This document shows positions 30,959-47,965 of a stretch of DNA of 52,651 bases, piece after piece; position 1 is the first letter of the stretch; the number at the start of each line of letters is the position of its first letter. The stretch covers positions 1 through 52,651 of the forward strand of contig CANQBO010000014.1 in NCBI GenBank assembly GCA_947589475.1. Reading direction: 5' to 3'. The position numbers were made by a program, and so were the translations under genes. This DNA is from an uncultured Clostridia bacterium. GTDB lineage: Bacteria > Bacillota > Clostridia > Christensenellales > CAG-917. The notes beneath the pieces were generated by a model. The model had not been told where the DNA came from. It saw only the letters and a program-made list of their open reading frames with translations, and did not search any database.

Positions 30959-32449
30959 TTAGACCTTTTTGCCCCAGAAATTCTTGAGGTTGATGGACGC
31001 GCTCGCTTTGTCGATGAGCCACAGAGCGGGTTCCTCCACGCCTTCAGGCGTAAAGTCGGAGCCGTCCTCGACGTGTCCCAAAGCGCTGCAGGTGAAGAAT
31101 TGTATACTCTTGAATTTTGATTTGAGGCTGTTGAGGAAGTTGTCCTCTTCGTACTCTATCAAGAATTGCTCGCAAACTTTGTTGCACGCCTCGTACTTTG
31201 ACTTGACGTCGTTCTCTTGCATATATCTCCTGACCGCAGTATCTCCGATCTTTTCTTCGAGTCCTGGAATATCGCATTTTGTGAAAACGACAGCCACGTC
31301 CGTCTTTATCATGTTTTTGGAATTGAGGCAATTCATGTTTTGCAGGTTGTTGATCAAGGTGTCCAAAACCTCGTCCATGCCCTTCTCGCTGGCGCCGTAC
31401 TTCGACAAGTCTATAGTATCGGCGACTTCTTCTCTGAATCTCTTTAGAGAAAGCGGGTCGACCATCATCAGAAAAGCGTTGGCATACTTAAATCCGATCT
31501 GACTGCCGACTTCGTCGTTGCGCTCATAGGCTTCGCCCGCAACGTCGCATATCGAGATCAAATTTCTGACCTTTTCCCCTTTTGGAGTCAAATAGAACTG
31601 ATAATATCTGAGACGCAAATCGTTTGTCTTTTCAGGCAGACGACCGTTTTCCATATTCTGTTTGTTCTCCTCGTAATCGTCGCCGAGCGCGTCGTTGGGC
31701 TTATAGCTGAAGTCCAAACCATACTTTGACTCGGCATTTGCTTCGATCTGAGAGATCGCCATGCTTATGTAGCAGGTCTTTCCCGAACTCGGACCGCCGA
31801 CGACCGGGATGGGGATGTCCACCTGAAGCGAACCGTCCAATTCGTAACCGCAGTCGGGACATACCCACTGTCCTGCTTGTTTGTGACGTCCGTTGAAGAA
31901 TGTGGTCTTAAGTTTGCGGCCGCATTCGCAGTGTCTTACAAAGACGCCGTATTTTGCGCTCGGCACAAGTCTGGAGTGCTTTCTGCCGCAAGTGCAGACG
32001 TATGCGGGCAGATCGAATTTGTTTTGACAGTTTGGGCACCCCGAGGAGATCTTCTTACATGATCTGTACACCCAGTCGGCAAAAGTCACGATGAGATATG
32101 CGATGTAGAAGCCCAGCATGACCAACAACAACACGGTGCCCTGTATCGCGGATAATACGGCGCAAATGACAGGAGTCATGACCGCGCTGATTATCAATCT
32201 TCCGAGAGAAAGACCAAACACAAACGCATAGCCTATCGCCCTGAAAAAGCTCTGGAAAGGCTCGTAGTCCAATGTGATGACGTCTCTTGCATTTTCGTAA
32301 AGTTCTTCCGCAGATTCTACGACCGCTTCCCAACTGTCGACAATGACATCTCCGCACGATTGAAACGTTTCGTAAATGGTCTCGCCAAACTCGTGGTAGC
32401 CGTCTCTGAAAAAGTAATTTATTTCTGCAGGTTGTTTTTCCATTTTCAT
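30959..32449 (-). CDS. Membrane-anchored zinc-ribbon TRAFAC GTPase (double-GTPase type 2-like)
   Basis: A 496-residue protein, last in the ten-gene locus. The N-terminal part has hydrophobic segments at about residues 65-130 (AIGYAFVFGLSLGRLIISAV; GTVLLLVMLGFYIAYLIV). Zinc-ribbon cysteine pairs follow: CPNCQNK, CTCGRK, CECGRK, CPDCGYE. A Ras-like GTPase domain comes last: P-loop VVGGPSSGKTCYIS, switch-II ICDVAGEAYE (DxxGE), base-recognition FTKCDIPG (TKxD). This matches TRAFAC GTPases predicted by comparative genomics to work in pairs with a GAP1-type partner (recalled, not searched). ATG 32449 follows AAGGAGG, which overlaps the end of the small membrane gene. Probably the effector or scaffold arm at the membrane (inference). 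Confidence 0.85.
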   Translation of the reverse strand: MKMEKQPAEINYFFRDGYHEFGETIYETFQSCGDVIVDSWEAVVESAEELYENARDVITLDYEPFQSFFRAIGYAFVFGLSLGRLIISAVMTPVICAVLSAIQGTVLLLVMLGFYIAYLIVTFADWVYRSCKKISSGCPNCQNKFDLPAYVCTCGRKHSRLVPSAKYGVFVRHCECGRKLKTTFFNGRHKQAGQWVCPDCGYELDGSLQVDIPIPVVGGPSSGKTCYISMAISQIEANAESKYGLDFSYKPNDALGDDYEENKQNMENGRLPEKTNDLRLRYYQFYLTPKGEKVRNLISICDVAGEAYERNDEVGSQIGFKYANAFLMMVDPLSLKRFREEVADTIDLSKYGASEKGMDEVLDTLINNLQNMNCLNSKNMIKTDVAVVFTKCDIPGLEEKIGDTAVRRYMQENDVKSKYEACNKVCEQFLIEYEEDNFLNSLKSKFKSIQFFTCSALGHVEDGSDFTPEGVEEPALWLIDKASASINLKNFWGKKV

Positions 32450-32461
32450 TTTTATCCCTCC

Positions 32462-32722
32462 TTATCCGATGGCGCTCATTGCGATAAAGTATGCGGGTAC
32501 TCCTATGATCGCCGCAATGAAAAGTCCTATCACTATGTACAACAATATCTTGAGGAAGGGATTGCTGATGCTTCGATGTATCCCGAGCACGCAGTTTTTA
32601 ATAGCGGTATAAATTCCCACAAAAACTGCGATGACAACACCCACACCCACTGACAAAGCGATAGACGCCAGGACTAATCCTATAAGGATGATAAAGAATA
32701 GGATCACTAGTACATAAATCAT
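32462..32722 (-). CDS. Small hydrophobic membrane protein of the chaperone-GTPase locus
   Basis: An 86-residue, almost wholly hydrophobic product with two or three membrane helices (MIYVLVILFFIILIGLVLAS..., VGVGVVIAVFVGIYTAI, LKILLYIVIGLFIAAIIGV). No catalytic motif. It lies between the GAP1-like gene and the membrane GTPase with 12-bp gaps on both sides, so it is almost surely co-translated. Roles such as membrane anchor partner or pore former are possible; sequence does not decide. Confidence 0.8.
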   Translation of the reverse strand: MIYVLVILFFIILIGLVLASIALSVGVGVVIAVFVGIYTAIKNCVLGIHRSISNPFLKILLYIVIGLFIAAIIGVPAYFIAMSAIG

Positions 32723-46122: not shown

Positions 46123-46357
46123 TTGCTTCTCCTCTCTCGATTTTTTGCGCCCTATTTCACGTCTTTTGAAAGTCGCGCCGCGACAATAAACTTCAGCTTT
46201 TCGGGCAACATATACAATCGCATATTATGTTATCAAATCTCACGAAAAATTGCAAGCATTAAGACAACATTAAAAAATCTTTTTTGCGCTTGTAAGTTTT
46301 ATTATTGCATTTGCAACTTCTTCGATGAAGTATATTTTTTTTTCGATCTGACTATCT

Positions 46358-47965
46358 TTAAGTCATATTTTTCTTATTTTTCATCATCTGTCTACTCCCT
46401 ACATACGCTTTTTTTCTCCACTCTATTACCATAGAATGGCTTTCATTGTTTTCTTTGTTTATAACGGTCACTTTATCCTGTTTTTCATCTAATATTCCGA
46501 TTTCAAGTATTATATCAAGCGGCGTATTATCTTCTATTTCTTTAAATTCGAAAACACAGTCGCAATAATTTTTATGCCCTTCAATCGGCACATCATATTC
46601 ATCAACTTCTATGGTCTGTTCTCTATATAAGGTGAAAAAGACTTCATTTGTCGAATCTGTTTTCTTGTAAAATACGTCAATACCTTTTTTACTACAACTA
46701 TATCGCGGCGGCAACAACGAATCGCCGAAGTTTATGAGTATATTTGACGTTTCCATCCTATCGGGGATAAAAGTAATGGAATACGTGAAAGGTGAATATA
46801 TTTCATACAAAATAGGTCCGCGTTTAAAAATAGACGGCTGTTCATCTTCATTTTCCAAATCGGGAGTGACTTTAATATCTTTTGCGACCAAAGCGGCGCC
46901 CATCGCTACGGCTTTGGTCGGCTCATACCGTCTCAGGGGTTTGTCATACTCGGCAGTCAATCTTTCGGTGACCTGCGGCATATATGTGGAGCCGCCGACA
47001 AGAATTATCTCGTCGATGTCCTTCTCCATATTCAAACCCTTTCTATCAAGCATATTGTTCACTATAGATATGGTTTGATCCAAAAGCCACGCCGTGACTT
47101 CGTTGAATTCCGCTCTGGTGATCTCGATTTTCTCTTTTCTTCCGTCGAAAACCACGAGCACGGAAGTCGTATCGCGTCCTGTGAGATTTTTCTTCGCCTT
47201 TTCGATGCTGACGCTCAACTCTTCCATGATCTCGTAGCCGGTTTCCATTTCAGCTATGTCCACGCCCGTGACATCGATGAACTTTTGGCAGACCAGATCT
47301 CTCAGCGCCGCGTCCCAATCCTTACCGCCGAGCTGATGGTCGCCGTCCATTGTGACATACTGCGTTTTCCTCTCTTTCCCGTGGAAGGAGAGCTTCATGA
47401 CCGTGCAGTCGAAAGTGCCGCCGCCGAGGTCGTAGATGAGTACGGTCTTGTCCATATCTTTGTGTACGAAGTCGCCGTACGCGATCGCCGCGGCGATAGG
47501 CTCGTCCAAAATTTTCAAAACTTTCAGGTGTGAACCGTCTGAGAGCGGCACATTTTCGCCCGCCGACTTTGTTGCTTTTCGAGCTTCTTCGCCGAAGTAT
47601 GCGGGGCAAGTGATGACCGCGCCCTCGATCTCTTCGCCTATGACGCGCTCAGCGTCCGCGATAAGTTGTCTCAAAATGAGAGTGGAAATTTGCGACGTCG
47701 TATATTCGACGCCGTTTGCAAAAAATCTATAATCGGGATTGCCCATATAGTTCTTGACACGCTCGACAAGACATTCGGGCATCAAAATGCCGTCTATACG
47801 TGCCATAGATCCCACTGTTGCACTACCATCGGGATTAAAAAAAACCACTGAGGGCGTTGTCTGCTCGCCTTCGATATTATCGACGATCCTTACGATCCCC
47901 TCGTCGTCTACATAGCTCACGCAAGAATATGTAGTTCCCAAATCGATTCCGATTTTCTTACCCAT
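46358..47965 (-). CDS. Hsp70 chaperone with replaced, AT-rich C-terminus
   Basis: A 535-residue DnaK-like protein, first gene of the locus. Residues 1-365 are nearly the same as those of the Hsp70 at 43368 (KKIGIDLGTTYSCVSYVDDE, ILDEPIAAAIAYGD, IYDLGGGTFDCTVMK, EIILVGGSTYMPQVTERL). Beyond about residue 370 the sequence is unrelated in detail and markedly AT-rich, ending in KKAYVGSRQMMKNKKNMT. No lid. It looks like a duplicated nucleotide-binding domain joined to a different substrate-binding domain, that is, a changed client specificity. An AAAGGAG site precedes ATG 47965. Confidence 0.93.
   Translation of the reverse strand: MGKKIGIDLGTTYSCVSYVDDEGIVRIVDNIEGEQTTPSVVFFNPDGSATVGSMARIDGILMPECLVERVKNYMGNPDYRFFANGVEYTTSQISTLILRQLIADAERVIGEEIEGAVITCPAYFGEEARKATKSAGENVPLSDGSHLKVLKILDEPIAAAIAYGDFVHKDMDKTVLIYDLGGGTFDCTVMKLSFHGKERKTQYVTMDGDHQLGGKDWDAALRDLVCQKFIDVTGVDIAEMETGYEIMEELSVSIEKAKKNLTGRDTTSVLVVFDGRKEKIEITRAEFNEVTAWLLDQTISIVNNMLDRKGLNMEKDIDEIILVGGSTYMPQVTERLTAEYDKPLRRYEPTKAVAMGAALVAKDIKVTPDLENEDEQPSIFKRGPILYEIYSPFTYSITFIPDRMETSNILINFGDSLLPPRYSCSKKGIDVFYKKTDSTNEVFFTLYREQTIEVDEYDVPIEGHKNYCDCVFEFKEIEDNTPLDIILEIGILDEKQDKVTVINKENNESHSMVIEWRKKAYVGSRQMMKNKKNMT

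Follow-up and report, generated by a model that had tools for sequence, protein, structure and literature searches.

The window analysed here, the whole 52,651 bp stretch of contig CANQBO010000014.1 from the uncultured Clostridia bacterium assembly GCA_947589475.1, carries a block of ten genes in which an Hsp70 chaperone is fused to a von Willebrand factor A (vWA) domain and is encoded beside a GAP1 protein and two GTPases. Judged from its sequence, the block may be an operon-like GAP1-N2 DO-GTPase unit in which the Hsp70-vWA protein would sense clients, a J-like/FN3 protein lacking the His-Pro-Asp (HPD) motif would serve as a scaffold, and GAP1 and the GTPases would act at the membrane in conflict with invaders. 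This reading is favoured tentatively and falls somewhat short of probable. All ten genes are open, lie on the minus strand between positions 30959 and 47965, and are present at the coordinates given in a preliminary description of the window. The intergenic gaps in order of transcription are 235, 61, 436, 12, 62, 173, 20, 12 and 12 bp, and the 12–20 bp spacing reported for most of the second half holds for four of the last six. Curated Pfam cut-offs are exceeded by HSP70 in three proteins, by VWA in one of these, by DO-GTPase2 in two proteins and by GAP1-N2 in one. The hidden Markov model check proposed earlier for the GAP1 and double-GTPase families is thus positive for GAP1-N2 and for both GTPases, and the module had been correctly identified as GAP1 with paired TRAFAC GTPases and Hsp70, GrpE and J-like proteins. 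The features of the block are as follows (aa, amino acids).

46358–47965, minus strand: G1, lid-less Hsp70 (Hsp70A), first in the block, 535 aa; HSP70 4.8e-76
45061–46122, minus strand: G2, GrpE-like protein, 353 aa; GrpE 6.1e-5, below the Pfam cut-off
43368–44999, minus strand: G3, lid-less Hsp70 (Hsp70B), 543 aa; HSP70 6.1e-83
40802–42931, minus strand: G4, Hsp70-vWA fusion, 709 aa; HSP70 1e-97, VWA 6.1e-18
40832–41344, minus strand: vWA domain of G4, occupying the lid position; metal ion-dependent adhesion site (MIDAS) DTSGS, and LTDG
39881–40789, minus strand: G5, short J-like protein, 302 aa; partial duplicate of G6
36720–39818, minus strand: G6, J-like/zinc-ribbon/TPR-like/FN3 scaffold protein, 1032 aa
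39084–39287, minus strand: HPD-less J-like domain of G6, residues 178–245; family profile against DnaJ J domains
36723–38207, minus strand: beta-sandwich (FN3-type) array of G6, residues 538–1032; model and Foldseek
35425–36546, minus strand: G7, soluble zinc-ribbon DO-GTPase, 373 aa; DO-GTPase2 9.9e-9, over the cut-off
32735–35404, minus strand: G8, GAP1, 889 aa, with a GAP1-N2 domain and a helical solenoid; GAP1-N2 3.1e-16
32462–32722, minus strand: G9, small protein, 86 aa, with two membrane helices predicted by hydropathy
30959–32449, minus strand: G10, membrane-linked zinc-ribbon DO-GTPase, 496 aa; DO-GTPase2 8.7e-14, over the cut-off

A scan counted 43 promoter-like sites against a shuffled mean of 22 and 23 terminator-like sites against 21; these counts were not used as evidence.

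Hsp70 proteins and the putative J-like scaffold

The third Hsp70 (G4) carries its vWA domain where the helical lid should be. The preliminary description had listed three lid-less Hsp70s; the HSP70 match stands for all three, and the vWA domain fused to the third had been overlooked. In G4 the HSP70 profile match stops at 519 of 599, with the vWA domain next, and the helical lid (the alpha part of the substrate-binding domain, SBD-alpha) is not matched. The lid is likewise unmatched in G1 and G3, whose best HSP70 profile matches stop near position 373. G3 is the paralogue type that adjoins the Hsp70-vWA gene in relatives. The probable start of G4 is at 42931, which gives the 709 aa length approached by most listed homologues. 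The C-terminal profile of G4 matches integrin-type vWA structures and DnaK SBD structures. MIDAS scoring covered the DxSxS and [LVI]TDG patterns; DxSxS is present in 34/34 vWA domains, the window's included, and [LVI]TDG in 31/34. The vWA domain is the least conserved part of the Hsp70-vWA proteins, with a mean pair identity of 0.45; SBD-beta reaches 0.56 and the nucleotide-binding domain (NBD) 0.65. The core of the G4 vWA domain (window 41000–41350) has an identity of 0.32–0.48 to the relatives L009 and L010, with both sides at about 0.7–0.9, as if this central stretch had been exchanged or had diversified on its own.

The ATPase residues of DnaK (D8, K70, E171, D194 and T199) are all kept in G1, G3 and G4 and in 33/33 Hsp70-vWA proteins longer than 600 aa. 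Among 38 Hsp70B-type proteins longer than 430 aa, D8 is kept in 34, K70 in 37, E171 in 38, D194 in 38 and T199 in 37. The position that receives the J-domain signal has changed. In canonical Hsp70s the target of the HPD aspartate is an arginine of the NBD, R167 of DnaK, as described in the text of PMC7289447, Table 1 of which lists R167 as 100% conserved in 1560 DnaK, 404 mitochondrial, 586 cytosolic and 334 endoplasmic reticulum sequences (2884 in total). This position is Lys in all three Hsp70s of the window (G1, G3 and G4), and Arg occupies it in 3/38 Hsp70B-type and 10/33 Hsp70-vWA proteins. A wider sample came from a homologue search with residues 385–735 of a longer reading of G4 (SBD-beta and vWA), which returned 458 proteins at E<=0.001, scoring being limited to the candidates that shared most words. 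The best 120 of these 458, with P0001 being the window's own protein, all have HSP70 and VWA domains; in the 118 that were readable the R167 equivalent is Arg in one and Lys in 113. As a control, the 30 best-scoring DnaK loci of the same order (61 genomes) were read in the same way and gave Arg in 29, with one unreadable by the pattern. A separate dnaK-dnaJ locus of the host genome lies on contig C30, and the DnaJ encoded there is normal, with HPD present.

The second gene encodes a GrpE-like protein, as had been described, with a GrpE score of 23.2 bits against a Pfam cut-off of 25.8. A Pfam GrpE match at E<=0.01 is found in 13/15 aligned members of the family, the window's protein included. 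The family profile matched no solved GrpE in the PDB, so the label "GrpE-like" is based on Pfam.

Two J-like proteins had been reported, and the profile of their family does match J domains; the two are a partial duplicate pair, and both are without HPD. The first 218 nt of G5 and G6 are identical, with divergence after that point. The G6 family profile matches J-domain chains at the matching position (best 6iws, E 9e-5), and of its 94 matches at E<=1 the 60 that were listed include about 30 J-domain chains, at least four of them below 0.001; it also gives TPR matches. For G6 itself, DnaJ is matched at E 0.065 in Pfam and at E 0.0051 in NCBIfam. HPD is present in the J-like region of 0/31 rows (two from the window and 29 from other loci), five of which contain HPD as a triplet at another place in the protein. 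It is likewise present in 0/68 rows of a second alignment, in which the window protein stands twice (also as P0146) and some rows are shared with the 31-row set. Because of this absence the proteins are named only J-like. Given that HPD is absent, R167 is usually replaced and the ATPase residues are intact, these chaperones probably do not follow an ordinary J-driven Hsp70 cycle, and canonical J-stimulated cycling appears doubtful. The "full Hsp70 chaperone cycle" of the preliminary description is not supported in this respect.

An AlphaFold model of G6 was built from 30 sequences, with L019 omitted because its protein holds X. Its mean predicted local distance difference test (pLDDT) value is 88.7 and its predicted template modelling (pTM) score is 0.38, and the placement of domains is therefore unreliable. 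The model begins with a helical part at the N-terminus, continues with J-like helices at 180–258 and a zinc-ribbon stretch, and then has TPR-like helices at 363–531; from 538 onward it consists of beta-sandwiches. Foldseek matches the model to FN3 arrays, fibronectin among them, with TM-scores that are low over the whole chain, and Pfam fn3 is matched in 6/30 J-like members. The J-like and zinc-ribbon start recurs in P0170, P0179 and P0180, where it is attached to LRR-type repeats.

The predicted GTPase switch and conserved gene order

The soluble GTPase (G7) contains the motifs GAKASGKS, DTAGE and TKID, and the membrane-linked GTPase (G10) contains GGPSSGKT, DVAGE and TKCD. CxxC and DxxGE are found in both, in agreement with the two zinc-ribbon GTPases and the switch motifs described earlier. 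A hydropathy scan of G10 identified one strong hydrophobic segment at 106–124. Among the GTPases of the loci, Walker A and DxxGE occur together in 30/31 soluble and 23/25 membrane ones, and [TN]KxD in only 17/31 and 13/25, respectively. The GAP1-like protein had also been recognised correctly, since G8 matches GAP1-N2 at 60.1 bits against a cut-off of 24, and GAP1-N2 is found in 24/24 aligned members at E<=0.01. G8 itself matches neither GAP1-M nor GAP1-C; GAP1-M is matched in 17/24 members, and GAP1-C is among no matches. In the model of G8 (mean pLDDT 89.3, pTM 0.60) the N domain is followed by a helical solenoid. A fold search with GAP1 returned only weak matches to helical-repeat proteins with low TM-scores and was not used.

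Across seven component types GAP1 is the fastest evolving, with a mean pair identity of 0.27 (n=16), and the soluble GTPase is the slowest, at 0.60 (n=18). In two close locus pairs all seven types are under purifying selection, with ratios of nonsynonymous to synonymous substitution (dN/dS) of 0.02–0.27 and GAP1 the highest; in these gene-wide values no positive selection or hypervariability is seen as a sign of an arms race. A small open reading frame (ORF) lies between the GAP1 and membrane GTPase genes in 9/16 measurable loci, with a predicted membrane helix in eight. As a small ORF recurs in this slot, the small membrane protein (G9) looks like a positional component.

Relatives of the block were collected by scanning one genome per species (84,980 species) with the C-terminal profile of Hsp70-vWA, which gave 40 loci; an earlier contig scan with GAP1 alone as the query had found nothing. 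Four loci (L045–L048), in which the match was to the first third of the query only, were dropped, leaving 36. Gene order was counted over recognised plus-strand genes of at least 150 aa, so unrecognised genes may intervene, and contigs cut at either end were included. The Hsp70-vWA gene is followed by a J-like gene as the next recognised gene in 33/36 loci, and the GrpE-Hsp70(s)-Hsp70vWA part is intact in 27/36. Hsp70vWA-J-GTPase-GAP1 stand in order in 25/36 loci and the series from GrpE and Hsp70 through Hsp70vWA, J and GTPase to GAP1 in 21/36, with the membrane GTPase next as well in 15/36. The GAP1 of L036 was missed by the profile and recovered with Pfam. The loci come from Clostridia, Treponema, Thiotrichaceae, Candidatus Celaenobacter and Lentisphaerae/Victivallales, and further ones from several Bacteroidota groups, Anaerolinea, Poribacteria and Methanosarcina. 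The full order is found in loci from Clostridia, Celaenobacter, Lentisphaerae and Bacteroidota, and in Treponema the positions of GAP1 and the membrane GTPase are swapped. The genes are therefore not scattered, and the conservation of order suggested as a check in the preliminary description is seen in independent genomes.

One locus, L010, appears to be a chimera. Compared with L009, both of its Hsp70s and residues 1–370 of its J-like protein are 86–88% identical and its GrpE is 68% identical, and identity drops to 35% from J residue 371 onward and to 56% in the GTPase. The comparison with L020 is the reverse: J residues 1–370 are 36% and Hsp70-vWA 52% identical, and the remainder of J is 91% and the GTPase 98% identical. 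The L020-like DNA stretch in L010 runs from 11923 to the contig end at 89.9% identity. This suggests that the two halves of the locus were exchanged inside the J-like gene, with the qualification that this is a single contig and misassembly is possible. A global test of whether the N-terminal part of J co-varies with the chaperones and the C-terminal part with the GTPases looked striking over all 120 pairs, with 13/5000 leaf flips reaching the observed value. It was rejected, as the signal vanishes without L010.

Several relatives carry additional genes. In L009 (5254–6419) a Syd/SUKH-2 gene and a Tox-HNH-HHH nuclease-toxin gene lie inside the operon, between Hsp70B and a shortened Hsp70 copy, and a SUKH-type gene is also present in L011. 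A gene pair whose first member encodes a TrwB/TraG coupling-protein-like ATPase lies between the J/FN3 and soluble GTPase genes in L009 (13735–16296) and L015 (13407–15953), and L024 has ORFs of similar size in the same slot. Directly downstream of the membrane GTPase, L014 (17870–19021) encodes a transglutaminase-core protein (Pfam), to which genes in L017 (10472–11518) and L021 (19626–20852) are similar by eye. An additional membrane-GTPase-type gene is located upstream of GrpE in L029, L032 and L041, and the soluble GTPases are tripled or doubled in L032 and L041. The SUKH-type, Tox-HNH-HHH, coupling-protein-like and transglutaminase-core genes would fit a conflict setting and also a delivery or envelope role.

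Patchy occurrence and genomic surroundings

GAP1-N2 is found in 1/43 genomes of the family, only in this one (1/25 of those near-complete), and in 7/297 genomes of the order, five of them over the cut-off and this genome counted. Full-length Hsp70-vWA is absent from the other 42 family genomes, where the remaining matches are to the ATPase part only. A comparison with two sibling genomes, G018 and G011, delimits the following stretch of the window.

30880–48104, no strand: stretch without a DNA match in siblings G018 and G011 (blastn against L090 and L091)

The flanks are shared with both siblings up to 30,880, at 48,104–48,196 and from 49,197 on, at about 80–87% DNA identity, with one shared 27-bp piece at 93%. 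The limits of the unmatched stretch are therefore close to those of the ten-gene block. At the same site G018 and G011 have 2.1–2.4 kb holding a different large ORF (L090:2798–4747, 649 aa; L091:2310–4550, 746 aa), which encodes a protein with a zinc-ribbon start; the starts of the two are nearly identical and the tails differ. In eight siblings, counted where both flanking genes lie on one contig, the distance from the thiamine pyrophosphokinase-type gene to the rubrerythrin-type gene (names assigned by eye) is about 0.3–2.7 kb, compared with 18.4 kb here.

Next to the block, at window 48391–49111, a RelB-type antitoxin gene is followed by a PIN-type gene with an in-frame stop, read by eye and with Pfam; both lie in the 48,196–49,197 interval that is unmatched in G018 and G011. 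On the other side, window 6994–13786 encodes an AddA/AddB-type helicase-nuclease pair (UvrD helicase; PD-(D/E)XK, ADDB_N). Among viral contigs, 108 stretches fitted the search pattern and 0 were confirmed. Among plasmids, 24 records match at E<=1e-60, and none covers 80% of G4.

Proposed mechanism and comparison with known systems

If the block is a conflict system, Hsp70-vWA and Hsp70B would load onto exposed, abnormal or foreign polypeptides, with SBD-beta and the vWA domain holding the client in a nucleotide-dependent manner and the GrpE-like protein resetting the Hsp70s. The J-like domain would dock the Hsp70s on the scaffold without triggering hydrolysis through HPD, and the FN3 or LRR repeats of the scaffold may bind ligands. 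GAP1 would then read the loaded chaperone complex and set the nucleotide state of the GTPase pair, and the membrane GTPase, together with the small two-helix protein, would execute a response at the membrane. The trigger would be an invading element. The preliminary description had proposed that the chaperones sense or remodel a client, for example a phage protein, and that the signal would run through the soluble GTPase and GAP1 to the membrane GTPase; both proposals are still hypothetical. A bolder version, possible but doubtful, is that these proteins represent an Hsp70 class free of J control, in which the vWA domain acts as a metal-dependent clamp in place of the lid, an HPD-less dock sits on an FN3/LRR receptor-like scaffold, the firing arginine is gone, and the client-loaded switch passes to the membrane GTPase pair; the chaperone and GTPase halves would be separable and joined inside one gene.

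A number of observations weigh against the conflict-system interpretation. The PADLOC defence scan gave weak, unrelated matches only, and no effector of known activity was found in the window. GAP1-N2 gave no match in 5/12 searched Hsp70-vWA genomes of unstated completeness (L034, L037, L039, L040 and L042), so the chaperone genes can occur without it and GAP1 is not in every case the recipient of their signal. Two of these, L034 and L037 from Methanosarcina, have a GrpE-Hsp70-Hsp70vWA-J module with GAP1-N2 unmatched in both genomes; the contig of L039 is short, and in L040 and L042 Hsp70vWA, GrpE and Hsp70 are present with no recognised J. Replacement of R by K, as in the window, is conservative, and Lys may partly stand in for Arg. 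The arginine is kept in 10/18 distant Hsp70-vWA proteins, all in L026–L044, and because these loci have HPD-less aligned J-like proteins, the loss of HPD and the loss of Arg are not strictly coupled. A second residue of the network, D481 in the SBD, is Asn in G4 and Asp in G3, with Asp in 20/38 Hsp70B-type and 9/33 Hsp70-vWA proteins. A J domain with HPD changed to AAA can still activate some Hsp70s (PMC13012618). At E<=0.01 Pfam DnaJ is matched in 0/30 J-like members, and all of the 50 best Foldseek hits of the J-like protein are FN3-type, with no J domain among them, so the J fold rests on the family-profile match. Correlation support for J as the joint likewise comes down to L010, the signal being gone without it.

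Other explanations fit parts of the same evidence. The block could be an envelope-stress device in which the membrane GTPases and small membrane protein see to the upkeep or repair of the membrane and the clients monitored by the chaperones are membrane or secretory proteins. That the block encodes a small membrane protein alongside a membrane GTPase agrees with this, as does the transglutaminase-core gene of L014, but the rarity of GAP1-N2 in the family and the other contents at the sibling site suit an accessory trait better than maintenance, and no Psp family is among the Pfam matches of the block; the explanation is unlikely, though it deserves serious weight. The version in the preliminary description, an ordinary complete Hsp70 cycle with J-stimulated hydrolysis and GrpE exchange acting on one client and coupled to the GTPases, is rather improbable. 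A GrpE-like protein is encoded beside Hsp70s with intact ATPase residues, the host DnaJ with its HPD could in principle assist from elsewhere in the genome, and HPD-independent activation has been reported for some pairs (PMC13012618), yet no aligned J-like row has HPD and the arginine that should receive it is Lys in all three Hsp70s of the window.

A protein-delivery or toxin-handling machine, with the Hsp70s readying substrates for export or activation, would account for the coupling-protein-like ATPase genes of L009 and L015 and the Tox-HNH-HHH and SUKH-2-type genes of L009. Such genes occur in few of the 36 loci, as judged from the part of the unrecognised ORFs that was tested, and in none of the window's block, where no secretion channel gene was recognised either, and this role is decidedly improbable. 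The Hsp70-vWA genomes that have no GAP1-N2, two of them Methanosarcina, would be expected if the chaperones were a general proteostasis back-up without signalling and the GTPases were passengers, but the Hsp70vWA-J-GTPase-GAP1 order is kept in 25/36 loci, and the genome has its separate dnaK-dnaJ locus on C30; this idea has very little probability.

The contact between HPD and Arg167, which the cited papers treat as a conserved core of Hsp70 control, is altered in this family: the Hsp70s look active and a J-like fold remains, but HPD is lost and the arginine is replaced in most cases. If Hsp70-vWA is the sensor, Hsp70 would be acting as an immune or stress switch, not as a folding aid, and it would supply the input for DO-GTPase/GAP1 systems. 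The findings make a predicted conflict system testable, and the variant merits biochemical work.

Pam16 (Tim16), a J-like regulator of mitochondrial Hsp70 import, has a J fold without HPD and pairs with the J protein Pam18. The block resembles it in placing an HPD-less J fold in an Hsp70 machine, with no homology claimed, and differs in that it has no HPD-bearing J protein to correspond to Pam18. A precedent for chaperone-based sensing may be found in bNACHT25, for which the text of PMC12169576 describes experiments in which DnaJ is needed to report phage infection; that system uses the host's own DnaJ/DnaK with a NACHT protein, whereas here the chaperones are encoded beside the switch. The MoxR-vWA ternary systems described in PMC7159879 also combine an ATP-driven chaperone with a vWA domain in predicted conflict systems, but their ATPase is MoxR, of the AAA+ type, and the block has an Hsp70 with the vWA covalently attached. 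In the CoCoNuT Type III CnuD/CnuCD proteins, as presented in the text of PMC11090510, Hsp70-like NBD/SBD regions likewise belong to a GTPase system of predicted antiviral function, whose operons include TerY-like vWA genes. The GTPase there is of the McrB type, the Hsp70-like part has degenerate Walker A-like motifs and the vWA is in separate genes; in the block the Hsp70 ATPase residues are intact.

The closest known system is the one predicted by Kaur, Burroughs, Iyer and Aravind in 2020 (PMC7159879), in whose account of GAP1-N2 GTPase-centric conflict systems HSP70/GrpE forms the second theme and action against invasive elements is itself a prediction. Among the papers listed in a literature search exclusive of subscription papers and preprints, judged by title and start of abstract, this was the sole one on the system, apart from one passing mention, and none of those listed showed an experiment on its action against invaders. 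Both the theme as set out there and the block contain a GAP1-N2 protein and two zinc-ribbon DO-GTPases of the TRAFAC class that carry Glu in Walker B, one of which is linked to the membrane. HSP70 and GrpE are likewise common to both, as are an additional HSP70 lacking the peptide-binding domain and an FNIII protein joined to DnaJ or TPR. The theme and the block differ in the J-like domain without HPD and in the vWA on the Hsp70 C-terminus; the vWA of Kaur et al. belongs to their tubulin and kinase themes, and the GAP1-N2 theme text of PMC7159879 does not mention an Hsp70-vWA fusion. The occurrence seen here also extends beyond that theme to Bacteroidota, Lentisphaerae, Treponema and others, and the window has three Hsp70s and a duplicated J-like start. 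By its sequence the block is a member of the already predicted HSP70/GrpE theme of GAP1-N2 systems, and its new features are the fusion of Hsp70 to vWA, a J-like fold that lacks HPD, and the change at the Hsp70 arginine.

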